Shown here piece after piece: positions 5,284 through 26,638 of a stretch of 64,000 nucleotides of DNA. The notes below the pieces were generated by a model. That model saw only the letters and a program-made list of their open reading frames with translations. It had not been told where the DNA came from and did not search any database. Source of the DNA: Pseudonocardiales bacterium. Lineage in GTDB: Bacteria > Actinomycetota > Actinomycetes > Mycobacteriales > Pseudonocardiaceae. Location: the NCBI GenBank assembly GCA_023252195.1, contig JAHEXI010000001.1, positions 186,001 through 250,000 on the forward strand, in the 5' to 3' direction. The position numbers and the translations under genes were made by a program. Numbering within the stretch: the stretch's first letter is position 1; the number at the start of each line of letters is the position of its first letter.

Positions 5284-6363
5284 CTAGGACGGGTGGATCA
5301 CTGTGACGGTGCCGTCGCCTCTGGCGGTGACGTAAGCGGTGCTGTCGGGAGCGATGGCAACCTCGTCAGGGTCGAAACCGACGAACGACGAGCCGAGCAC
5401 TGTTTCCTTGGCGGTGTCGATCACGGTCAGGGTGCCCTCGGCGACGTTGACCACAAAGGCGTGGTGGCTATCGGAGTCGACCGCCAGACCACGCGGGTTG
5501 ATGCCCACTGGAATGGTGCTATTGACCTTCAGCAGGGTGTTGTCCTTCAGCAGGCTGTTGTACAGGTCCAAACCGACCTTGTTGGGAAGGTTGATCACGC
5601 TCACGTTGTTGTCCCCGAAGTTCGTCACGTAAGCATGCTTACCGTCACGGTCGATCGCGATCTTCTGCGGCGCCCGACCGACCAGAATGGTGCGGACCAG
5701 CTTCTGGGTGTGGACGTCGATCACGCTGACCGAGTTGCTGCCGCTGTTGGTCACGTAGGCCAACTGGCCTTTGGGATCGATCGCGACCCCGTCCGGGTGG
5801 ACTCCGACCGGCACGGTACCGACCAGCTTGAAGTTCGCAAGATTGATCACGCTGAGGGTGTTGCCGTAGTAATCGGTGACGAAGGCGTAATGGTCTTTGG
5901 GGAAGACCGCGACCGCGGTGGGGTTCACGCCGACAGCGATAGTTTTGATCACTTTCCCAGTGGCGGTGTCGACCACGCTCACCGAGTTCTCGGAGAAGTT
6001 CGTCACCAAGGCGTGCCGGCTGTCTGGGTCGACCGCAACTCCGCGGGGATTGGCGCCGACGCGGATGCTCCCGACCACTTGCCGACTCGCGGTGTCGATC
6101 ACTCGCAGGGAGTTGTCCGCGTAGCTGGCCACGTAGGCGTGCTTGCCATCGGGGTCGACCGCGACCCCCTGAGGGTCGCCACCGACGAGCACGGTCGGGT
6201 TCGGGTTATCTGCCGCAACGGCTGTGCTGACCCCGCCGACCACCGTGGCGGCGGTGACGATCGCCAGCACCGGCACGAGTGCCGCTACCCACCGTCGAGA
6301 CCCGAGCGGGACCGGGCTGGCAGGTCTGCTCAAACGGTGCTTCGCTGCGGATCGGATCGTCAT
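5284..6363 (-). CDS. Exported YVTN-family beta-propeller repeat protein
   Basis: This 359-aa protein has an N-terminal signal sequence (basic MTIRSAAKHRLSRP, then a hydrophobic run about residues 24-52 ending in AVAA). About seven 40-42-residue repeats follow, each with the pattern G.NP.GVAVDPDG.HAYVTN...NSVSVIDT.T. This is the YVTN/NHL-like seven-bladed propeller, expected outside the membrane. The ATG at 6363 is chosen because GGGGAGACGTGC precedes it and the signal peptide begins there; the frame is open further upstream but that part is low complexity and Arg/Pro rich. It lies 103 bp downstream of the histidine kinase on the same strand, so it may be the last gene of that operon. A ligand or partner is not known. 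Confidence 0.85.
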   Translation of the reverse strand: MTIRSAAKHRLSRPASPVPLGSRRWVAALVPVLAIVTAATVVGGVSTAVAADNPNPTVLVGGDPQGVAVDPDGKHAYVASYADNSLRVIDTASRQVVGSIRVGANPRGVAVDPDSRHALVTNFSENSVSVVDTATGKVIKTIAVGVNPTAVAVFPKDHYAFVTDYYGNTLSVINLANFKLVGTVPVGVHPDGVAIDPKGQLAYVTNSGSNSVSVIDVHTQKLVRTILVGRAPQKIAIDRDGKHAYVTNFGDNNVSVINLPNKVGLDLYNSLLKDNTLLKVNSTIPVGINPRGLAVDSDSHHAFVVNVAEGTLTVIDTAKETVLGSSFVGFDPDEVAIAPDSTAYVTARGDGTVTVIHPS

Positions 6364-6466
6364 GCACGTCTCCCCTTGCTCGCCGATGTACGGCCACGCC
6401 ACAGGGAGTAACGACAGTGTGGCTCTCACGTTTCGCCCCGCGCCGCAGTCCGTCACTTCGGGGCGG

Positions 6467-7912
6467 TCAAGCCAACGGCAACAGGGCCCTGAAGGTGGTG
6501 CCGTGTCGGGCGGCGGTATGCAGCTCGATGCGGCCGTTGTGGGCCTCCAGAATGGCCGCGGTGATCGCCAGGCCGAGACCCGAGCCACCACGGTGCTGGG
6601 TGCGGCGGGGATCGAAGCTGTGGAACCGGTCGAACACATGCGAAGCCTGGTCAGGTGGGATACCGGGACCCTCGTCGTGAACCTCCAGCACACCGAGCGG
6701 CGCGGGCGGCAGCTTCTGCATCCCCGCCTGCGCCACTGGCGGTTCGTCCTGCGCGGACGGCACATGCTGTCGCACCGTCAGCCGCACCGCAGTGCCCGCC
6801 GGGGTGTGGACCAGGGCGTTGGTGACCAGGTTGGTCACCACCTGACGGAGTTTGTGCTCATCGCCCAGGACGTGCACCGAGTCGGTGCCTGGGGCCAGCG
6901 TCACCCGGCGGTCTGGTTCCCGGGCTTTCGCATCGTGCACTGCGTCGGCGGCCAGCACGAGCAGGTCGACGTCGGTGATGTCCAGGGCCCGCTGTTGATC
7001 CAGCCGGGCCAGCAGCAGCAGATCTTCTACCAGGACGCCCATCCGGGTCGCCTCGGCCTCGATCCGGCCGGTGAGCAGCTCGACCTCAGCGGGCGTGCGG
7101 GCACCACCGCGGCGATACAGCTCCGCGAACCCTCGGATCGACGTCAACGGAGTGCGCAGCTCGTGGGATGCGTCGGCCACAAACTGGCGTAGCCGGTCCT
7201 CGGAGCGCTCACGCTCGTGCAGTGCGTCGGCGAGCCTGCCCAACATGACGTTGAGCGCCGCGCCCAGCCGGCCGGTCTCGGTGCGCGGATCGCTGTCGGG
7301 CACCCGACGATCCAGTTCACCACCGGCGATCGCCTCAGCGGTGCGCTCGATCCTGGTCAACGGTCGTAGCCCCAGCCGGACCACGATCGTCGCGACCCCC
7401 CCGACCAGGAACAGCACGATCCCGCCCACGATGGCCTCGATGATCAGAAGCTCCCGCAGTATGACGTCGACCGATCCCAGCGACAGCGCGACGGCCACGA
7501 TCCCGTTGTTCGGGAGTTCTACCGCTTCAACCCGCCATGCGCTGCCGCCGGCGCGATCGGACACCGTGAACGGCGTGCCGCCTCGGCGTCGCACCGCGGC
7601 CTGGTCCAAGCTGGGCAGCGCGGGGCCGCCAAGCTGACCCGGCTGTTGACCCAACTCGTACGCGGTGGTGCCGTCCGGCGCCAGCACAGTGAGCCGGTAG
7701 TCGCTGGGCAGCCGCTGAGGGTTCGGCCGCTCCGCTGCTGCGATCCGGTGCAGCGGGAAGTGGTGCAGCTGCTGGTCCGCCCGGCTCAGCAGGGAGTGCC
7801 GCAGCAGTAACTCGCTCGCTCCGGCGAACATCGCCAGCCCGACAGCGGAGAACACCAGCAGGGCGGCGATCAACCGGCCGCGCAGGGTGAGCGGTCGAGG
7901 CGGCATCCTCAT
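6467..7912 (-). CDS. Membrane sensor histidine kinase (HAMP, HisKA, HATPase_c)
   Basis: This 481-aa kinase has a transmembrane helix at about residues 12-34, an extracytoplasmic sensor loop (35-155), a second helix (about 157-180), a HAMP linker (about 180-232), a HisKA domain with the H-box FVADASHELRTPL (His250), and an ATPase domain with N, G1 (VHDEGPGIPP) and G2 (GGSGLGLAI) boxes. The start codon overlaps the stop of the upstream OmpR regulator as ATGA, so the two are translationally coupled and almost certainly cognate. The arrangement resembles the mycobacterial TcrX/TcrY and TrcR/S type pairs, but orthology is not claimed. The YVTN propeller gene follows on the same strand. Confidence 0.92.
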   Translation of the reverse strand: MRMPPRPLTLRGRLIAALLVFSAVGLAMFAGASELLLRHSLLSRADQQLHHFPLHRIAAAERPNPQRLPSDYRLTVLAPDGTTAYELGQQPGQLGGPALPSLDQAAVRRRGGTPFTVSDRAGGSAWRVEAVELPNNGIVAVALSLGSVDVILRELLIIEAIVGGIVLFLVGGVATIVVRLGLRPLTRIERTAEAIAGGELDRRVPDSDPRTETGRLGAALNVMLGRLADALHERERSEDRLRQFVADASHELRTPLTSIRGFAELYRRGGARTPAEVELLTGRIEAEATRMGVLVEDLLLLARLDQQRALDITDVDLLVLAADAVHDAKAREPDRRVTLAPGTDSVHVLGDEHKLRQVVTNLVTNALVHTPAGTAVRLTVRQHVPSAQDEPPVAQAGMQKLPPAPLGVLEVHDEGPGIPPDQASHVFDRFHSFDPRRTQHRGGSGLGLAITAAILEAHNGRIELHTAARHGTTFRALLPLA

Positions 7913-17400: not shown

Positions 17401-18645
17401 GTGAACCAGCTCGGCCACCTCGCGATGGTGGGTGCCGTCGTCCTCGCCGTGGTGATCGCTGCCGGGTTGATACTCCGGAGGCGACGGCGCCAGCCATTCG
17501 GCAGCGACGCCGATCGCGCCACGTACACCGCGCTGCACACCATGGCGCAGGCTTCACCACCGCTGCGGGATCGGTTGTCAGCCGCCTCGGCGACTGCCGC
17601 GGCACCGCATCTGCGGGCCTTGTTGAACTGCTCAGCCGTCGCGCTGACCAACGAGGAAAGCGTGATGCTGGCCTGGGACGGGGACGCTCAGCATCATGCC
17701 GAATGGGTCGCTGAGGCGGCGCTGGAGGTGCTGAGCACCGGACGTCAGCAGGTCCGAAGCCAGCGTGAGATGGACTGTGGGCGCGCCGACTGCCCGATTC
17801 GCGCTGTCGTCGTCTGCCCGCTGGAGGTCGACGGCGGCGTCGTCGGGACCTTCGGTGTGGTCAGCCAGCGGCCCGCCGCGGCGGGCGTGATGAAGGCTGC
17901 CGCGGAGGTCGCGCGGTACGTCTCCAGCCAGCTGGAGCTCGCTGAGCTCGATGAGTCCCGATCCCGATTGGCTCATGCCGAGGTGCGGGCGCTACGCGCG
18001 CAGATTTCGCCGCATTTCATTTACAACGCGCTCACCACGATCTCCTCGACCGTCCGCACCGACCCGGAGGAGGCCCGTGAGCTGCTGATGGAGTTCGCCG
18101 AGTTCACCCGGTACTCCTTCCGCTCCGCTGGAGAGTTCACCACGCTTGCCGAGGAGCTCAACAACATCGACCGCTACCTGATCCTGGAGAAGGCCCGGTA
18201 TGGGGAGCGGTTGCAAGTGCGGTTGCAGATCGCGCCCGAGGTGCTACCGGTGGTATTGCCGTTCCTGGCGTTGCAGCCGCTGGTGGAGAACGCGGTACGG
18301 CACGGCTTGGCGGGCAAGCCCGGCGGCGGCACCGTGTCGGTCGTCGCCGAGGACGCCGGATCCGATTGCCTCATCAGCGTCGAGGACGACGGCATCGGGA
18401 TGGATCCGGACCGGCTGCGTGACGAGATGACCGACTCACACGTCACGGGTGCGCATGTCGGGCTGGGCAACGTTCATGATCGGTTACGCGGAGCCTTCGG
18501 CGAGGAATGCGGGCTCGTGGTCGAAACCGGACCGGGGATGGGCACCAAGGTCAGCATGCGGGTACCCAAGTTCAGCCGCGGCGTGCGCGCCATCGCCCCA
18601 CCAACACCAACCGCATCCCGAACCCAACCCCCCGTAACCGCCTAG
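17401..18645 (+). CDS. LytS-type sensor histidine kinase (GAF-like, His_kinase, HATPase_c)
   Basis: This 414-aa protein starts at GTG. There is one N-terminal transmembrane helix (about residues 8-25), a GAF-like sensor region (about 45-180, including ADCPIRAVVVCPL), and the LytS-family His_kinase domain with QISPHFIYNALTTISS (His205). The ATPase domain has LQPLVENAVRHGL and EDDGIGM boxes and a final G-rich loop. It is the sensor half of a pair with the LytTR regulator at 19776; an S49 peptidase gene lies between them. In related bacteria LytS/LytTR pairs (BtsSR, YpdAB) sense pyruvate and control monocarboxylate carriers, which fits the symporters downstream. Confidence 0.88.
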   Translation: MNQLGHLAMVGAVVLAVVIAAGLILRRRRRQPFGSDADRATYTALHTMAQASPPLRDRLSAASATAAAPHLRALLNCSAVALTNEESVMLAWDGDAQHHAEWVAEAALEVLSTGRQQVRSQREMDCGRADCPIRAVVVCPLEVDGGVVGTFGVVSQRPAAAGVMKAAAEVARYVSSQLELAELDESRSRLAHAEVRALRAQISPHFIYNALTTISSTVRTDPEEARELLMEFAEFTRYSFRSAGEFTTLAEELNNIDRYLILEKARYGERLQVRLQIAPEVLPVVLPFLALQPLVENAVRHGLAGKPGGGTVSVVAEDAGSDCLISVEDDGIGMDPDRLRDEMTDSHVTGAHVGLGNVHDRLRGAFGEECGLVVETGPGMGTKVSMRVPKFSRGVRAIAPPTPTASRTQPPVTA

Positions 18646-18771: not shown

Positions 18772-19647
18772 ATGGATGTCAAGGACCTGACGTCGCGGCT
18801 GCCGCTGCCCGGCACGCTGCGCGAGCGCGGCCCGGTGGTGGCTGCGGTGAAACTGCACGGCGTGATCACACCGACGGCGGCACCGCTGGGTCGTGGAGTG
18901 ATCAACCTGTCCGTCTTGGAGTCGGTGCTGACCCGGGCCTTCGGCTTCGACCGGCTGCGGGCGGTGGCGTTGTTGATCAACTCACCGGGCGGTTCGCCCA
19001 CCCAGTCGGCTCTGGTGGCGGACCGGATCCGCGGTCTCGCCGATCTTAAGGACGTGCCGGTGCTGGCGTTCTGCGAGGACGTCGCCGCATCCGGTGGGTA
19101 CTGGCTCGCCTGTGCCGCCGATGAGATCGTCGCCCACCCGACGTCACTAGTCGGCTCCATCGGGGTGGTCAGCCAGGGCTTCGGGCTGCATGGTCTGCTC
19201 GAGCGCTTCGGGGTCGAGCGGCGGCTGTACACCGCGGGGGCCAACAAATCCCGGCTCGACCCGTTCCTGCCTGAGCGGGAGGACGACGTGGTGTGGTTGC
19301 GTAGCATGCAAACCGAACTGCACGGTATGTTTCGCGACTGGGTGTGTTCGCGCCGCGGCGATCGGCTGGTGACCGGTCAGCAGGACCTGTTCACCGGTGA
19401 GGTGTGGAGCGGTCGCCGGGCCCTGGAATTGGGTTTGGTCGACCGGCTCGGCACAATGCGTGGGGAGATCGCCACGCGCTACCCGGACGCGGAGATCATC
19501 ACGGTGGAGGCACGCCGGCCGTTGCTGGCTAGGCTGGGGATAGCACCCGCAGCGGCCGCGCTGAGCGGGCGTGGCGGTCCGGAATCCGCGTTGGCGGTGC
19601 TCGAAGCGCTTGAGCACCGCGCCACCTGGTCCCGCTTCGGGCTGTAG
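18772..19647 (+). CDS. S49-family signal peptide peptidase-like serine protease
   Basis: This 291-aa protein has the SppA-type Ser/Lys dyad: Ser107 in AASGGYWLACAADE and Lys159 in AGANKSRLDPF. The strand LLINSPGGSPTQSA and the SLVGSIGVVSQ block are also present. There is no clear N-terminal transmembrane helix, so it resembles the soluble or peripheral S49 proteins rather than full SppA. It should cleave signal-peptide remnants or membrane-protein fragments. Its position inside a LytS/LytTR-symporter locus is notable but may be simple co-location. Confidence 0.87.
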   Translation: MDVKDLTSRLPLPGTLRERGPVVAAVKLHGVITPTAAPLGRGVINLSVLESVLTRAFGFDRLRAVALLINSPGGSPTQSALVADRIRGLADLKDVPVLAFCEDVAASGGYWLACAADEIVAHPTSLVGSIGVVSQGFGLHGLLERFGVERRLYTAGANKSRLDPFLPEREDDVVWLRSMQTELHGMFRDWVCSRRGDRLVTGQQDLFTGEVWSGRRALELGLVDRLGTMRGEIATRYPDAEIITVEARRPLLARLGIAPAAAALSGRGGPESALAVLEALEHRATWSRFGL

Positions 19648-19775
19648 CTCTGGCCGATCACACTGAGTACCAGGGATGGCACTAGTCCGCCAACCGTGGA
19701 CAGCGATACCGGCCATGTGCAGGATTGATGGTCCGGGGTTGGTGGGGGCACACTGGTCTGGCGGAAAGGCGGTCG

Positions 19776-20621
19776 ATGAGCGGCAACGACGACAACCCGG
19801 GTCTTGTCGTGCTCGCCGTCGACGACGAGCCGGGTCCGCTGTCCATGTTGGTGGAAGTACTCGAAGCCGAGCCGCGGATCGGCACCGTGCTGACGGCCAC
19901 CAACGCCACCGAGGCATTGTCGGTCTTGCGTCCTGACAACCGGGGCACCAACGGAACGTCGTCGCTGCCCCAGATCGACGTCGTGTTCCTCGACATCCGG
20001 ATGCCGGGGTTGGACGGGCTGGAGTTGGCCCGCCTGCTCGGCGCGATTCCCAACCCACCGGTGGTCGTGTTCGCCACCGCCTACGATGAGAAGGCTCTCG
20101 ACGCCTTCGAGATCGGCGCGGCCGACTACCTGATGAAGCCGGTGAGTCGAGAGCGACTGGCCAACACCATGCGGCGGATCGTGGCCTCCCGGCGCGACGC
20201 GTCTGCCCCGGGACCGGATCCCGGCAGCGAGGACGAGGTCATCCCGGTGGAGCTCGCCGGGACCACCAAGCTGGTGCCGCGCTCGTCGGTACGCTGGGTG
20301 GAGGCGCATGGGGACTACGCACGGCTGCACACCGGAGAGGGCACCAGCCACCTGGTCCGTATCCCGCTTTCCCAGTTGGAAGATCGCTGGTCGGACGCCG
20401 GGTTCGTGCGGATCCACCGCTCCTTTCTGGTCGCCCTGCCGCTGGTCACCGAGCTGCGCATGTCGGCGTCGGGTTACGTGGTGCGGGTGGGTAACGGAGG
20501 TGACGCCACCGAGTTACCGGTCAGCCGAAGGCACACTCGAGAGCTGAAGGACCGCTTGGTCCGTGCGGCCAAACAGGGCTGGACCTCCCGAGCAGCTCCG
20601 ATGAACCCCGATGAGTTGTGA
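19776..20621 (+). CDS. LytTR-family response regulator
   Basis: The start ATG at 19776 follows GGAAAGG and gives 281 residues; a TTG further upstream is less likely. The receiver has the acidic pair (AVDDEPG), Asp73 in VVFLDIRMPG and Lys121 in YLMKPVS. After a linker (about 145-160) comes a LytTR DNA-binding domain with VRWVEAHGDYARLH, HLVRIPLSQLEDRW and FVRIHRSFLVAL. It pairs with the LytS-like kinase at 17401. It overlaps the next gene's first candidate start, implying an operon with the membrane protein and symporters. Confidence 0.92.
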   Translation: MSGNDDNPGLVVLAVDDEPGPLSMLVEVLEAEPRIGTVLTATNATEALSVLRPDNRGTNGTSSLPQIDVVFLDIRMPGLDGLELARLLGAIPNPPVVVFATAYDEKALDAFEIGAADYLMKPVSRERLANTMRRIVASRRDASAPGPDPGSEDEVIPVELAGTTKLVPRSSVRWVEAHGDYARLHTGEGTSHLVRIPLSQLEDRWSDAGFVRIHRSFLVALPLVTELRMSASGYVVRVGNGGDATELPVSRRHTRELKDRLVRAAKQGWTSRAAPMNPDEL

Positions 20622-21144
20622 TGAGTCCGCCCATGCGTCGGCGATGAGTCTCCATGAGTCCCCCATGAGTACTGACGCGACTGGACCGGATGACGACCCG
20701 TGGGAGGCTCTGACGCGGGCGGCCGAGGACGCGGCGGCCGCAGAAAAAGCCCGGGAGGCCAACGGCTACCCGGTCGCGGCCAAGGTCAAGCTCGGCAAGC
20801 GGGAACGGATCGTGCTCGCCAAGCGGCGCAGCAGTCGCCGGGTGATACGAACGCTCGCCGAGTTGGAGGATCAGACCAGCGTCGGTGAGGTACTGGTTCG
20901 CCAGTTGGTGCGGGTGCAGCTGATTTTGTCGATCCGGCTGATGCTGCTCACGGTGCTGGTGCTAGCGGGTATCCCGCTGTTGTTCCTGATGCCGTCGCTG
21001 GGCACCATCACCGTCGTGGGCATACGGCTGCCGTGGCTCCTGCTCGGGTTCGCGGTTTACCCGTTCTTCGTCGCGGTGGCCTGGTCCTACAATCGCAGCG
21101 CGGATCGTAACGAGCAGGACTTCGCCGATATGGTCGAGAACTGA
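20611..21144 (+). CDS. Membrane protein preceding the first symporter
   Basis: This 177-aa protein (159 if it begins at the ATG at 20665, MSTDATG) has an acidic Ala-rich N-terminus, a basic central part (VKLGKRERIVLAKRRSSRRV) and two C-terminal helices (about residues 108-130 and 135-158). I do not recognise a named family. The place of the gene directly before a sodium:solute symporter resembles that of DUF485 proteins, small two-helix partners of acetate carriers, so it may be a divergent partner; this is inference. It overlaps the LytTR gene by 11 bases and ends 8 bp before the symporter. Confidence 0.7.
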   Translation: MSCDESAHASAMSLHESPMSTDATGPDDDPWEALTRAAEDAAAAEKAREANGYPVAAKVKLGKRERIVLAKRRSSRRVIRTLAELEDQTSVGEVLVRQLVRVQLILSIRLMLLTVLVLAGIPLLFLMPSLGTITVVGIRLPWLLLGFAVYPFFVAVAWSYNRSADRNEQDFADMVEN

Positions 21145-21152
21145 ACGCCAGC

Positions 21153-22946
21153 GTGCCTGGGCAGGCGGTGTTCTACGTCACCATCGGTGCGATGGTCGTG
21201 ATTGCCGCGGCGACCATGCTCACCGGGCTCTACGGGTCGAAGGTCAGGTCGACCTCGGACTTCCTGGTCGCGTCTCGAACGCTGGGGTCCCGCTGGAATG
21301 CCGCGGCGATCTCCGGCGAGTACCTGTCCGCGGCCTCCTTCCTGGGAATCGCCGGTCTGGTACTCAAGGGAGGGGTGGACGCGCTGTGGTACCCGGTCGG
21401 GTTCACGGCAGGATATCTCGCCCTACTGCTTTTCGTGGCGGCGCCGCTGCGCAGATCGGGTGTCTACACGCTGCCCGACTTCGCCGAGGCACGTTTGGGC
21501 TCGGTAGGTCTGCGCCGGGTCTGCACCATTTTCGTGATCGTCATCGGCTGGCTTTACCTGGTACCGCAGATGCAGGGCGCAGGGCTGACCCTCCATGCTG
21601 TGACCGGAGAGCCGAAGTGGGTCGGCGCGGCGGTGGTCATGGTGATCGTGACGTTGAACATCTACACCGGCTGGATGCGCTCGATCACCATCGTGCAGGC
21701 CTTCCAGTATTGGATAAAGCTGACCGCGCTCGCCATCCCGGTCTTCGTGCTGCTGATTCACAATGCCGGCGAGAAACCGGGTGTGCGGGGCTCGCTGGGT
21801 GCCTCGGCGCTGCCGCATTTCTCCCATGCCGCCGATATCACTCTTGATCACGATGTGGTGCTGGAAGTCGCTGCGCCGATGGTGGTCAACGCAGTGGGAA
21901 ACGAGGACGGGCGATTCGCGAACGGGACGGTGTACTGGGCACCAGGGGAGCACCGGGTCGCCAAGAACACCAGACTGCACTTCGACGCGGGCAGCCGGAC
22001 TCCGGTGATCCGAGGTGCCGTGTTGGACAACGACAAATGGCTTCGTCCACTGGGCAGCGGCAGCCATCCGTTGCTGGCCACGTACTCGCTCATCGTGGCG
22101 CTGCTGCTGGGCACCATGGGGTTGCCGCACGTACTGGGGCGGTACTACACCGACCCCGACGGCCGAGCGGCGCGCCGGACCACGTTGCTGGTGCTGTCCC
22201 TGCTCGGAGTTTTCTACCTGTTCCCGATGGTGTCCGGATGGCTCGCTCGGCTGTACGTCCCGGAGCTGCTGGTCAACGGCAACACCGACGCCGCGCTGCT
22301 GCTGCTGCCACGCGCCGCGTTGGGCGGATGGCCAGGGCTGCTACTCGGTGGCCTGATCGCTGCCGGGGCGTTCGCCGCCTTTGTCTCCGCCGCCACTGGG
22401 CTGGTGGTCAGCATCGCCGGAGTGTTGTCCACTGACGTGCTTCCCAGTCGGTTGCGGGACTTCCGGGCGGCCACTGCGGCTGCCTGGACAGTGCCGTTGG
22501 CGTTCGTGCTCGCCGTGTCATCGTTGGACCTGGCGCAAGGTGTGGGACTGGCTTTCGCGGTGGCCGCCTCGTCGTTCTGCCCGCTGCTCGTGCTGGGCAT
22601 CTGGTGGCGCGGGCTGACCGACGTCGGCGCGGCGGCCGGCATTCTGGCCGGCGGCGGGCTCGCGTTCGCCACGGTGCTGCCGGCCGCGGCCGGCGTACTC
22701 CCGCCAGGGTGGCAGACACTGTTGGCCCAGCCCGCTGTGTTCACCGTGCCGCTGGCCTTCCTGACCATGGTGGTGGTCAGCAAGCGCACCACTGATCGCA
22801 TCCCGGTCGACGTATCTCGCATCCTGCTGCGGTTGCATGCACCAGACCGGTTGGGCCTGTCGGAGGATCGGGACTTGGACCAGATGGCCCCCCGCTCCGG
22901 GATGGTAGCGCTGCCCAGGATGCGCGGTGGCCGGCACCGTCGGTAA
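21153..22946 (+). CDS. Sodium:solute symporter (SSS family), acetate-permease-like
   Basis: This 597-aa integral membrane protein starts at GTG and has about 13 helices. The block SGEYLSAASFLGIAG near residue 50 and GLPHVLGRYYTDPD near 325 are typical of the ActP/MctC branch of the SSS family, which imports short monocarboxylates (acetate, propionate, pyruvate) with sodium or protons. Residues about 215-300, between helices, form an extra soluble loop (ITLDHDVVLEVAAPMVVNAV and following) larger than usual for ActP. A second symporter lies downstream, so the locus has two carriers. Substrate is inferred from family only. Confidence 0.87.
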   Translation: MPGQAVFYVTIGAMVVIAAATMLTGLYGSKVRSTSDFLVASRTLGSRWNAAAISGEYLSAASFLGIAGLVLKGGVDALWYPVGFTAGYLALLLFVAAPLRRSGVYTLPDFAEARLGSVGLRRVCTIFVIVIGWLYLVPQMQGAGLTLHAVTGEPKWVGAAVVMVIVTLNIYTGWMRSITIVQAFQYWIKLTALAIPVFVLLIHNAGEKPGVRGSLGASALPHFSHAADITLDHDVVLEVAAPMVVNAVGNEDGRFANGTVYWAPGEHRVAKNTRLHFDAGSRTPVIRGAVLDNDKWLRPLGSGSHPLLATYSLIVALLLGTMGLPHVLGRYYTDPDGRAARRTTLLVLSLLGVFYLFPMVSGWLARLYVPELLVNGNTDAALLLLPRAALGGWPGLLLGGLIAAGAFAAFVSAATGLVVSIAGVLSTDVLPSRLRDFRAATAAAWTVPLAFVLAVSSLDLAQGVGLAFAVAASSFCPLLVLGIWWRGLTDVGAAAGILAGGGLAFATVLPAAAGVLPPGWQTLLAQPAVFTVPLAFLTMVVVSKRTTDRIPVDVSRILLRLHAPDRLGLSEDRDLDQMAPRSGMVALPRMRGGRHRR

Positions 22947-23071
22947 TCACCGCTGCATACCGAGCGGTTCGCGATGCGGTGCACGCTGGTGAAAGTCCGG
23001 CCACTAGGGTGTGCCGGTCTTCGCGACGCACGTCACATCAGCATGATCATCACTGCCCTGGAGGTGTCTGC

Positions 23072-23425
23072 ATGAGCACCACCGAGCGCGTCGGCGGTGT
23101 GGGCACGCCGCCACCGGTGGACCCTTGGGCCGCCGCCCACACCAGCACGGATTTCGCCATGCTGCGACAGCGGTTCCGCGGCTTCGTCTTCCCGATGACC
23201 GCGTTCTTCCTGTCCTGGTACCTCTTGTATGTCGTGCTGGCAGCCTTCGCGCCGCACTACATGGCCATCAAGATAGTCGGCAACGTCAACATCGGATTGA
23301 TCTTCGGCTTGCTCCAGTTCGTCTCCACCTTCGCCATCACAACGGTGTATGTCCAGTTCGCAAGCCGCAATCTCGACCCGCTCAGCAGCCAGATCTGTAA
23401 GCGGGTCGAAGGAGGAGTCTGGTGA
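23072..23425 (+). CDS. DUF485 membrane protein
   Basis: Starting at the ATG at 23072 after CTGGAGGTG, this 117-aa protein has the DUF485 pattern: a soluble N-terminus, LRQRFRGFVFPMTAFFLSWY leading into the first helix, a short loop with APHYMAIK, and a second helix ending in FASRNLDP. DUF485 proteins are encoded next to acetate/pyruvate SSS carriers (as with C. glutamicum mctC and E. coli actP) and are probably their partners. Its stop overlaps the GTG of the next symporter as GTGA, so the two are translationally coupled. Confidence 0.9.
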   Translation: MSTTERVGGVGTPPPVDPWAAAHTSTDFAMLRQRFRGFVFPMTAFFLSWYLLYVVLAAFAPHYMAIKIVGNVNIGLIFGLLQFVSTFAITTVYVQFASRNLDPLSSQICKRVEGGVW

Positions 23426-26253
23426 TTGCAGCGTTAGTCCAGCACGCCGTCGGGGCGCCGCTGCTCAACGGCGGGATCTTCGTTTTCTTCGTGCTGGTCA
23501 CCTTGGTGATCGTGTTCCGGGCCTCGCACCGCACCAAGACCGCCGCTGACTACTACGCGGCGGGTCGATCGTTCACCGGGCCGCAGAACGGGGTAGCGAT
23601 CTCCGGCGACTACCTGTCCGCGGCCTCGTTCCTGGGTATCGCCGGGGCCATCGCGGTCTACGGTTACGACGGTTTTCTCTACTCCATCGGCTTCCTGGTC
23701 GCCTGGCTGGTGGCCCTGCTGCTGGTCGCCGAGCTGCTGCGAAATACCGGCAAATTCACCATGGGTGATGTGCTGAGCTTCCGAATGCGCAGGCGGCCGG
23801 TACGGGCCGCCGCGGCGGTATCGACGCTGGTGGTGTCGTTCTTCTACCTGCTGGCGCAGATGGCCGGCGCTGGTGGTCTGGTCGCCCTCCTGCTCAACGT
23901 CAGCAGCAAGGCGGGTCAGGCCTTGGTGGTCGCGGTCGTCGGCCTCCTGATGATCTTCTATGTGCTGGTCGGTGGGATGCGTGGCACCACCTGGGTTCAG
24001 ATCGTCAAAGCCACCCTGCTGATCATCGGTGCGGGCATGTTGACCGCCTGGGTGCTGGGCTCGTTCGGGCTCAACCTGTCCGCCCTGCTGGGTGAAGCGG
24101 CGGCGAAGTCGTCGCACGGCCAGGCCGTCCTTGCGCCGGGTCTGCAATACGGCAAGAACACCACGACGAAGCTCGACTTCGTCTCGCTGGGGCTCGCGCT
24201 GGTGCTGGGTACCGCAGGTCTGCCGCACATCCTGATGCGTTTCTACACGGTGCCATCGGCAAAAGAGGCGCGCCGCACCGTCGTGTGGGCGATCTGGCTG
24301 ATCGGCATCTTCTACCTGTTCTCACTGGTGATCGGCTATGGCGCCGCGGCTCTGGTCGACGGTGGTCCGCAGCGGATCGCCAGCATGCCCGGTCAGGAGA
24401 ACTCGGCGGCGCCGCTGCTGGCCTACCAGCTGGGTGGGGAAGTGCTGCTGGGCTTCATCTCGGCGGTTGCCTTCGCCACCATCCTCGCGGTGGTGGCTGG
24501 TCTGACGATCACTGCGTCGGCGTCATTCGCGCACGATGTCTACGCCAACGTGATCAAGCGCGGAAACCTCGATCCCGACCGCGAGGTGCGCGTCGCCCGG
24601 ATCACCGCCGTGGTCATCGGCGCGCTGGCGGTCCTCGGTGGTATTGCCGCGCTCGGCCAGAACGTCGCGTTCCTGGTGGCACTGGCCTTCGCGGTAGCGG
24701 CTTCGGCGAACCTTCCGACGATCCTGTATTCGCTTTTCTGGAAGCGGTTCAACACCAGTGGTGTGCTGTGGAGCATGTATGGCGGCCTGATCAGCTCGGT
24801 GCTACTGATCATCTTGTCTCCGGCCGTGTCGGGTACGCCGAAGTCGATGTTCCCGAGTCTGGATTTCGCGATCTTCCCGCTGAAGAACCCGGCGCTGGTC
24901 TCGGTACCGATAGCGTTTGCGCTCGGATACCTCGCCACGGTGCTCAGCAAGAACGACATCGCCGACCCGGCCAAATACGCCGAGATGGAGGTGCGGGCGC
25001 TGACCGGGGCCTTTGCTGAGCGATCGCTGGAATCGCCGGTCGACATCCCGTCGCAGCCCAGGCCGCCGCTGCGCCCGATGCCCGCCGCGACTGCCTACAG
25101 CATCCCGTTCGGCTCGACTGGTGACTCCCCTGCTGAACTCACCGCCAAGCCCCCGGAGTTGACGCCAGCCGCACCGATCGACCGGGTTTTACGACGGCGG
25201 GTACTGATGGCCACCGGGGTGCTGGTCGTGGTGGTCGTCCTCGGAGTTTCTGTTTCGATGACCCGGGTCCTGGCGGCGCCACCGCAGGGCGCGAACACCA
25301 CACCTCAGCTCGGACCCAACACCGCGGCGGACGTCGGACCGGAGGTAGCAATACCCGCGCTCGGCGGGATTATCCAGGTCGGCAAGACTCCCGCCTTCGT
25401 CGCGGTCTCCCCGAATGGTCGGCACGCCTACATCGCGAACGGGAAAGCTCAGGTCGTCACCGTGGTGGACACGGCGGTCAACCAGGTAACCGCGACCATC
25501 CCCATTCCTGCGGGTCCGCCGCAGTTCCTCGCCTTCGCGCCGGATGGCCGGACGCTGTACGTCAGCATCTTCAACGATCAGCGGACGATCCACGCGATCG
25601 ATGTGCTCGACACCGCGTCGAACACTGTGGTCGCAACGATTCCACAGCCCGCGCGCCCATATCTCGCGGCGGTCACCCGGGACGGCAAACGGATCTACGT
25701 GCCTAACCACGACACCGCGTCGGTGTCGGTGATCGGTACCGACACCAACACCGTGATCGCAGAGGTTAAGGTCGCGCCGAACCCGCACTGGGTCACCTTC
25801 TCCCACGACGGCACCCGCGCCTATACGGCCAACCACGAGTCCAACGTTGTCTCGGTGATCGACACCACCACCCTGGAGGTGCTGGCGACCATCCCAGTCG
25901 GGGCCAGCCCGCACAGCATCTCGGTACACCCCAGCCTGCCGTTGGTAGCCAATGTCAACTACGACGGTGGCACCATGTCGGTGATCGACACCAACACCAA
26001 CAAGGTGGTGGCGACCATCCCGGTCGGGCAGCATCCGCAAGACATCGCCTGGGCTCCGGACGGACGGTTCGCCTACGTGGTCAATGAGGGCAGCAACAGT
26101 GTCACCGTGATCAACGCCCGGACCAACCAGGTCACCGCGACCATCCCGACCGGGGCCAATCCGACCAGCATTGCGGTGCTGCCCAACGGCCGGCAGGCAT
26201 TTGTGAGCAACGTCGACAGCGGAACGCTGACGGTCCTGGAACTCACCGGCTGA
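23422..26253 (+). CDS. ActP/MctC-like sodium:solute symporter fused to a membrane-anchored YVTN beta-propeller
   Basis: This is one uninterrupted 943-aa frame. Residues 1 to about 533 are a complete SSS carrier of the acetate/pyruvate type (DYYAAGRSFTGPQNGVAISG, GDYLSAASFLGIAG, AGLPHILMRFYTVP). A Pro-rich cytoplasmic or linker segment follows (about 534-592), then an extra transmembrane helix (about 594-614, VLVVVVVLGVSVSM). From about residue 648 to the end there are about seven 42-residue YVTN repeats with the pattern VSVIDT.T..V.ATIPVG..P. Ordinary ActP/MctC proteins end near 550 residues, so the propeller adds about 300 residues, presumably outside the membrane. It is coupled to DUF485 by a GTGA overlap. 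The carrier role is strong by family; the propeller role is unknown, perhaps substrate capture, gating or surface interaction. Confidence 0.9.
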   Translation: MIAALVQHAVGAPLLNGGIFVFFVLVTLVIVFRASHRTKTAADYYAAGRSFTGPQNGVAISGDYLSAASFLGIAGAIAVYGYDGFLYSIGFLVAWLVALLLVAELLRNTGKFTMGDVLSFRMRRRPVRAAAAVSTLVVSFFYLLAQMAGAGGLVALLLNVSSKAGQALVVAVVGLLMIFYVLVGGMRGTTWVQIVKATLLIIGAGMLTAWVLGSFGLNLSALLGEAAAKSSHGQAVLAPGLQYGKNTTTKLDFVSLGLALVLGTAGLPHILMRFYTVPSAKEARRTVVWAIWLIGIFYLFSLVIGYGAAALVDGGPQRIASMPGQENSAAPLLAYQLGGEVLLGFISAVAFATILAVVAGLTITASASFAHDVYANVIKRGNLDPDREVRVARITAVVIGALAVLGGIAALGQNVAFLVALAFAVAASANLPTILYSLFWKRFNTSGVLWSMYGGLISSVLLIILSPAVSGTPKSMFPSLDFAIFPLKNPALVSVPIAFALGYLATVLSKNDIADPAKYAEMEVRALTGAFAERSLESPVDIPSQPRPPLRPMPAATAYSIPFGSTGDSPAELTAKPPELTPAAPIDRVLRRRVLMATGVLVVVVVLGVSVSMTRVLAAPPQGANTTPQLGPNTAADVGPEVAIPALGGIIQVGKTPAFVAVSPNGRHAYIANGKAQVVTVVDTAVNQVTATIPIPAGPPQFLAFAPDGRTLYVSIFNDQRTIHAIDVLDTASNTVVATIPQPARPYLAAVTRDGKRIYVPNHDTASVSVIGTDTNTVIAEVKVAPNPHWVTFSHDGTRAYTANHESNVVSVIDTTTLEVLATIPVGASPHSISVHPSLPLVANVNYDGGTMSVIDTNTNKVVATIPVGQHPQDIAWAPDGRFAYVVNEGSNSVTVINARTNQVTATIPTGANPTSIAVLPNGRQAFVSNVDSGTLTVLELTG

Positions 26254-26299
26254 CTCCTCCTGGATCCACCGGGTGGCCGACTATGGCACCATTGGCGCC

Positions 26300-26638
26300 A
26301 TGACCACCCCGGTTCCGGCCATCGTGGTGGCCGACTTGCTTGGTAGTGCGGTACTGCTCGACGTCCGTGAAAACGACGAGTGGGCCGCCGGGCATGCGCC
26401 GGCGGCGGTGCACGTCCCGATGGGGCAGGTGGCGCAGCGGCTCGACGAGCTGGCCACTGTGTTGCCTGATCGCCCGGTGCACGTGGTGTGCCGCTCAGGA
26501 GGGCGGTCGGCGCGGGTCACGGCCTACCTCAAGCAGGCGGGTTGGGAAGCGGTGAACGTCGAGGGCGGGATGCGCGCCTGGGCCGCTGCGGGTCGTCCTA
26601 TGGTGGCCGACTCGAACGTGGCGCCGCGGGTTCTGTAG
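26300..26638 (+). CDS. Rhodanese-like domain protein
   Basis: This 112-aa single-domain rhodanese starts at the ATG at 26300 (MTTPVPAIVVADLL). The conserved LLDVRENDEWAAGHAPAAVH leads to the active-site loop VVCRSGGRSARV with Cys64. It would transfer sulfane sulfur in the cytoplasm; the acceptor is unknown. No clear ribosome binding site precedes the start. It lies 46 bp after the symporter fusion and 5 bp before the DUF4328 gene. Confidence 0.88.
   Translation: MTTPVPAIVVADLLGSAVLLDVRENDEWAAGHAPAAVHVPMGQVAQRLDELATVLPDRPVHVVCRSGGRSARVTAYLKQAGWEAVNVEGGMRAWAAAGRPMVADSNVAPRVL

Follow-up and report, generated by a model that had tools for sequence, protein, structure and literature searches.

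A MctC-type carrier continued in frame by a transmembrane helix and a seven-bladed YVTN β-propeller in a genus of Pseudonocardiaceae

The window analysed here, a stretch of 64,000 nucleotides from a Pseudonocardiales bacterium (contig JAHEXI010000001.1), contains a gene in which a single uninterrupted frame of 943 codons (23422-26253, + strand) encodes one polypeptide joining a carrier of the MctC/ActP type, a linker, an extra transmembrane helix and a YVTN β-propeller. The fusion is real and specific to its lineage: a member of a known carrier family has been altered by the reuse of a known kind of receptor ectodomain. In our reading the propeller is an ectodomain for the binding of a partner or ligand, which would anchor the carrier, and not a scoop for its substrate. 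The parts of the gene are the following, in coordinates of the window:

23422..26253, + strand: fusion gene, MctC-type carrier, linker, transmembrane helix and seven-bladed YVTN propeller, 943 residues
23449..25029, + strand: MctC/ActP-type SSF carrier, residues 10-536 (NF058657 and PF00474)
25036..25203, + strand: variable proline-rich linker, residues 539-594, past the old C-terminus; predicted to lie inside and to be disordered
25204..25272, + strand: extra transmembrane helix, about residues 595-617, predicted N-terminus in and C-terminus out by positive charges (hydropathy and charge count)
25357..26250, + strand: seven-bladed YVTN β-propeller, residues 646-943, predicted extracytoplasmic (TIGR02276, AlphaFold, 1l0q_A)
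25705..25962, + strand: conserved histidine-rich loops of blades 3-5, namely NHD (762-764), NPHW (787-790), NHE (804-806), PHS (830-832) and NY (846-847)

The start codon is a GTG that overlaps by 4 bases the stop codon of an upstream DUF485 gene, and the stretch AAGGAGGAG stands immediately 5' of it. The MctC model NF058657 matches residues 10-536 with 848.9 bits (curated cut-off 670), the SSF model PF00474 matches residues 44-455 with 318 bits (cut-off 22.8), and the YVTN repeat model TIGR02276 reaches 192.1 bits against a cut-off of 27.85. Two further models fell below their cut-offs, the MmpL3/TtfA complex stabilizer NF048007 (65.1 bits, cut-off 600) and the lactonase-type nitrous-oxide reductase L-NosZ NF052460 (90.8 bits, cut-off 700), and a Pfam scan found no kinase family in the polypeptide. 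The full chain was modelled with AlphaFold from a 30-row alignment, giving a mean predicted local distance difference test score (pLDDT) of 64.1 and a predicted template modelling score of 0.41. In the model 27 strands fit seven blades over residues 646-943, the 28th strand (in blade 3) being weak and placed by hand, and the ten-residue means of pLDDT are at least 90 from residue 651 to 940. The propeller shares 38-40% identity with 1l0q_A, in a fold comparison that barely probes the chain outside residues 639-943. For residues 511-642 the pLDDT is below 50; the hydrophobic extra helix appears by hydropathy at about residues 595-617 and is placed by AlphaFold at 589-610. A preliminary description of this DNA had reported one continuous 943-codon frame with a full carrier, an additional transmembrane helix and about seven YVTN repeats, all of which is borne out by these matches, by hydropathy, by AlphaFold and by the 11 genomes of the genus.

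The fusion is found in 11/11 genomes examined of this genus of Pseudonocardiaceae, unbroken in ten and split at a contig edge in one (G001). End-to-end matches at 83-96% identity occur in nine of the ten other genomes, the tenth being G001, where the gene is divided between two contigs and an unread stretch (X in the translation, N in the DNA) interrupts the first portion; this break is an assembly gap and not a demonstrated frameshift. The copies of the genus are 90-99% identical to the window protein in the carrier and 82-98% in the propeller. In all 11 genomes two conserved anchors are separated by 93-124 codons that keep the frame and contain no stop codon, and no stop or frameshift is seen at residues 535-600, the place where the reality of the frame was to be checked. 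That the gene is an assembly chimera or an annotation artefact, a suspicion to which the mostly fragmented drafts of the genus lend themselves, is refuted by the identical junction in 11 separate genomes with linkers of differing length, and we leave this explanation almost no probability. A conserved internal start just before the helix was considered and rejected: among start codons kept in at least 8 of the 11 sequences over residues 500-719 none lies in the linker (546-594), those found being in the carrier tail (507 and 522 in 11/11, 524 in 9/11), inside the helix (604 in 9/11, 613 in 11/11) and in the propeller (681 and 682 in 11/11, 689 in 8/11).

The range of the fusion was searched in the genomes of the family, the order and the phylum; these searches list the best matches only, with 2 to 4 candidates scored per genome, and a diverged fusion could escape them. 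Among the matches listed, a full-length run from carrier into propeller occurs in the family only in the 11 genus genomes (200 genomes, none in the 189 others), and in the order (298 genomes) and the phylum (296 genomes) only in the window's own genome (G000). The combination of SSF and YVTN, whose taxonomic range the preliminary description had left to a search, is confined to the genus among these matches.

Selection on the parts was estimated from Nei-Gojobori ratios of non-synonymous to synonymous substitution rates (dN/dS) for 12 pairs drawn from the 11 fusion sequences, one of which (L024) is partial. The ratio is 0.03-0.12 in the carrier (residues 20-500), 0.04-1.09 in the carrier tail (501-545), 0.38-1.16 in the linker (546-594), 0-1.25 in the helix (595-620), 0.08-0.29 in the stretch after the helix (621-652) and 0.04-0.29 in the propeller (653-943). 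The propeller is under purifying selection and the linker drifts yet keeps its frame; the contrast between the regions indicates two constrained domains flanking a free tether. A neutral passenger, that is, a chance fusion tolerated by the carrier, would suit the values near 1 seen for the linker in several pairs, but the low ratios of the propeller hold in 12/12 pairs and four conserved histidines of its loops are intact in 11/11 carrier fusions, and we consider this explanation very improbable.

The propeller module was added at the old C-terminus of the carrier, since 4/4 unfused relatives examined, the MctC proteins of four loci in which a rhodanese gene follows, end just past query residue 535 (by 3-4 residues, which for these four bears out an end near residue 540-550; the earlier statement had put it near 550), and the fusion has about 400 residues beyond that point. 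The nearest relatives of the added part are encoded in the window's own genome: they share 66% and 62% identity with it, reach back to residues 544 and 534 and are the C-terminal halves of Hsp70-like proteins (Pfam run on L002). A related module follows a caspase domain in genome G003 and Hsp70-like domains or protein kinases in other Pseudonocardiaceae; altogether the module is present in 20/150 genomes and 6/46 genera of the family (E up to 1e-60). A tree was built from 59 distinct propellers, taken from matches of at least 40% identity spanning at least 230 residues, some of them cut at contig ends, and assigned by partner to Hsp70 (29), carrier (11), kinase (11) and caspase (1), with 7 unassigned. 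In this tree all 11 propellers of the carrier fusions fall into a single clade (100/97; 100% of 200 bootstrap trees), nested in a genus-only clade of 27 (100/99) that also holds 14 Hsp70 rows, 1 caspase row and 1 solo propeller. The single clade argues for one fusion followed by vertical descent, provided that the root lies outside it. The joining of two neighbouring genes is an unlikely origin, since no propeller match stands beside MctC in any of 17 unfused loci (most of which reach only about 1.5 kb downstream) and the nearest propeller relatives lie elsewhere in the genome.

Several of the other propeller proteins deserve a description of their own. Proteins combining an Hsp70-like ATPase with a YVTN propeller occur in the genus, in Pseudonocardia and in Actinomycetospora (L002:199-2730 (+), L003:1492-3927 (-), L071-L078); two of them belong to the window's own genome and are perhaps more telling than the carrier fusion. 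In G003 a caspase-domain (PF00656) protein of 740 residues ends in a helix-propeller module (L046:361-2580 (+) and L081:4867-7086 (+), which give the same Pfam matches), its propeller being 78% identical to that of the carrier. Other genera of Pseudonocardiaceae have Ser/Thr kinases with propellers of the same family (L129, L132-L137, L148-L150), in which the histidines are mostly kept; the kinase assignment was made by Pfam for L129 and L132 and, for L133-L137, by BLAST to that gene's kinase part (L097). The window's own genome also encodes a free-standing propeller of this family, a protein of 391 residues that lacks an N-terminal partner (L004:1378-2553 (+)). More distant YVTN propellers are found in G009 (L110:873-2591 (+), 38%), where the N-terminal part resembles by eye a serine protease plus a helix and gave no Pfam match, and in the window itself at 5284-6765 (-), where the protein, 37% identical to the propeller of the fusion over the best stretch, is by eye probably secreted and the true start of the open reading frame likely lies downstream of the listed one.

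The side of the membrane on which the propeller lies was judged from positive charges. Thirteen carrier helices were counted from low-confidence AlphaFold helices, of which a long one was divided manually, and the N-terminus was set outside. On this count lysine and arginine number 21 in the 114 residues of the presumed inner loops against 6 in the 140 residues of the presumed outer ones, and around the extra helix the preceding 25 residues contain 5 and the following 25 contain 0. This distribution places the propeller outside, so that it is probably extracytoplasmic; the same position had been claimed beforehand, and the charges support it. At the outer end of the helix R615-V616-L617-A618 is invariant in 10/10 rows of the ten-row alignment A2, and also in L024, though the helix otherwise varies. 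A V-x-A sequence suits signal peptidase, and the gene might thus encode a polyprotein, in which the helix would be a signal anchor and the propeller would be cut off outside near V616-L617-A618, so that one gene would yield two proteins. In favour of this, the motif is not kept in the four rows of alignment A3, of Hsp70 or caspase type, that extend to it (L068, L070, L078 and L081). The stretch 621-652 after the motif is nevertheless conserved too, so that the motif may be structural, and we regard cleavage as distinctly unlikely.

The conservation of the propeller loops bears directly on its function. Over the 24 modules of alignment A3 the invariant residues include N762 H763 D764, N787 P788 H789 W790, N804 H805 E806, P830 H831 S832 and N846 Y847, of which W790 and some others vary in the wider 59-row set. 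They fall in the D-A and B-C inter-strand loops of blades 3-5; the D-A and B-C loops of propellers lie on one face. H763, H789, H805 and H831 are kept in 55, 58, 57 and 57 of the 59 rows, across all partners, and in 27, 29, 29 and 28 of the 29 Hsp70 rows. Loops conserved whatever the partner suggest a shared ligand or partner, and because the histidines are kept on non-carrier partners the ligand of the propeller is unlikely to be the substrate of the carrier. The capture of substrate, which had been suggested at first, finds no support in that form, given that related propellers bearing these four histidines sit on Hsp70-like, kinase and caspase-like proteins; of capture, gating and coupling to a surface partner, we rank the last as the likeliest. 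The same distribution of the histidines stands against the propeller being an enzyme, a metal- or histidine-dependent hydrolase of lactonase-like type that would make the substrate of the carrier. Such an activity would be in line with the Lactonase model PF10282, which scores 76.9 bits on the fusion (gathering cut-off 21.7), and with the invariant NHD, NPHW, NHE and PHS residues in neighbouring loops; the model, however, also matches 12/12 other propeller proteins scanned (one protein twice), and we find an enzyme quite unlikely.

The genes that precede and follow the fusion in the window are these:

17401..18645, + strand: LytS-type histidine kinase (PF06580, PF02518)
18772..19647, + strand: S49 (SppA-like) peptidase (PF01343, 103.9 bits)
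19725..20621, + strand: LytTR-type response regulator (nearest NCBIfam model BtsR, 129.5 bits, under the cut-off of 246)
20611..21144, + strand: small protein without a family match, with hydrophobic helices by eye; synteny kept
21153..22946, + strand: second SSF carrier, a distant paralogue (PF00474, 122.8 bits)
22979..23425, + strand: DUF485 gene, with a 4-base overlap with the start of the fusion (PF04341, 106.2 bits)
26273..26638, + strand: rhodanese-domain gene, 19 bases 3' of the fusion

Of the 10 genus loci searched, 8 extend upstream far enough to show the whole order, and all 8 have second SSF carrier, DUF485, fusion and rhodanese in succession; the rhodanese gene lies 3' of the fusion in 10/10. 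In unfused loci DUF485 precedes MctC in 17/17, and a rhodanese gene follows mctC in 4/17, from four other genera, at a distance of 32 to 459 bases as compared with 19 at the fusion; in the other 13, which mostly have short flanks, no rhodanese match was seen. The peptidase gene sits between the kinase and the regulator in the window, and no S49 match was seen between the corresponding genes of Pseudonocardia acaciae (L089).

The two-component genes bear on the possibility that the fusion is a sensor or transceptor, in which the ligand of the propeller would gate the carrier or the carrier would signal to the neighbouring LytS/LytTR system, in the way supposed for receptor kinases whose ectodomain is a propeller. 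These genes stand within the same cluster, related modules are found on Ser/Thr kinases and Hsp70-like ATPases, and a passage of PMC3601408 suggests that the outer propeller of PknD binds regulatory ligands. On the other hand, a near-neutral linker, with 93 to 124 codons between the anchors, makes a poor gating rod, and kinase and regulator matches also stand upstream of the unfused MctC of L089, so that the propeller is not needed for that arrangement. We consider a sensor unlikely.

In the genus genomes the fusion is the only protein above the MctC cut-off, in 10/11 (the broken copy of G001 falls short), and no unfused MctC above the cut-off accompanies it; besides the fusion, the window's genome encodes two SSF proteins, one next to it at 21153 and the other on contig C46. 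The residues S342, S343, S345, S346 and D182 of SiaT, named as Na2/Na3 ligands in the relevant part of PMC5931594, align with A356, V357, A359, G360 and Q193 of the fusion (weak alignment, 44.7 bits), and the side-chain ligands are absent in 29/29 MctC proteins checked (3 fused, 26 unfused). The MctC of Corynebacterium glutamicum is described in a section of PMC3552994 as driven by the proton potential, and a passage of PMC7746861 groups ActP and MctC in one monocarboxylate cluster. The missing SiaT-type Na+ ligands agree with the proton drive reported for MctC, and the carrier is probably proton-driven.

Thus, we propose, giving the explanation as a whole an even chance, that an MctC-type carrier was extended once in the ancestor of the genus by a linker-helix-propeller module, and that the propeller binds outside and anchors the carrier. 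In that ancestor the old C-terminus of MctC would have gained a module of the kind found on the Hsp70-like and caspase-like proteins of the genus, while the carrier, to judge from its family, would still import acetate, propionate or pyruvate. The flexible inner linker and the extra helix would carry the chain outward and, if the charges are a true guide, display the propeller outside, where its conserved histidine-rich face may bind an envelope ligand or a protein partner; this binding would hold the carrier at a particular site or complex. Least certain is that the binding serves anchoring rather than regulation or catalysis. Several points weigh against this explanation: the carrier half is poorly modelled by AlphaFold and the topology therefore depends on charges and hand-set helix limits; the dN/dS of the helix reaches values above 1 and that of the propeller exceeds that of the carrier in 11/12 pairs; cleavage would be permitted by the V-L-A conserved at the helix's outer end; the tree, rooted only at its midpoint and containing flagged long branches, traces the donor no further than the genus clade (L144 being the nearest row, 87/76); the alignment with SiaT is a weak one; and the assemblies of the other ten genus members are drafts in about 90 to 610 contigs.

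Compared with known systems, the fusion resembles MctC and ActP in that its carrier half passes the NF058657 cut-off both here and in 9 other genomes of the genus, in the adjoining DUF485 gene, as in the 17/17 unfused loci searched, and in lacking the SiaT Na+ side-chain ligands, as do 26/26 unfused relatives; it differs from them by the roughly 400 residues of linker, helix and propeller. CbrA-type fusions are SSF carriers with an added C-terminal inner signalling part, a sensor kinase. The likeness to them lies in an SSF carrier with a C-terminal addition, whereas here the addition is a propeller and no kinase family is present. The Hsp70-like proteins (L002, L003, L071-L078) have propellers 62-78% identical in these ten and the same four histidines in most rows, and differ in carrying an N-terminal Hsp70-like ATPase (PF00012 in L002 and L071) in place of a carrier. 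The archaeal surface-layer YVTN propeller 1l0q and E. coli YncE differ in that they are not named as transporter fusions. With receptor kinases of the PknD type the fusion shares an inner N-terminal domain, one helix and a C-terminal propeller, outer in those kinases and probably so here to judge from the positive charges, and L129 is a kinase with a propeller of the same family at 58% identity; it has, however, no kinase domain and a many-helix carrier as partner, and seven blades against the six given for PknD in a passage of PMC3601408. Propellers on bacterial kinases are known, as parts of PMC1262709, PMC3601408 and PMC7159879 describe. A literature search within one open-licence library found no report of an SSF-propeller protein, no paper related by title to Hsp70 with YVTN and none on CbrA/STAC.

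A wider idea, which we hold possible though doubtful, is that a single outer recognition propeller is used in common by otherwise unrelated inner proteins of the genus, namely its Hsp70-like ATPases, a caspase-like protein (in one genome) and the MctC-type carrier, all of which would bind the same envelope ligand through the histidine-rich loops, so that acid uptake would be placed in, or regulated with, a surface complex of stress or death signalling. If this were true, the gain of a receptor ectodomain would have turned the carrier into a receptor-carrier. In all 11 genomes of the genus a propeller ectodomain of the receptor-kinase type, added once to the end of a metabolic carrier, is under selection. 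The fusion is thus a clean natural case in which to ask what a secondary carrier gains from an outer domain, and a search for the ligand has a definite target in the histidines that the propeller has in common with those of the Hsp70-, kinase- and caspase-type proteins.

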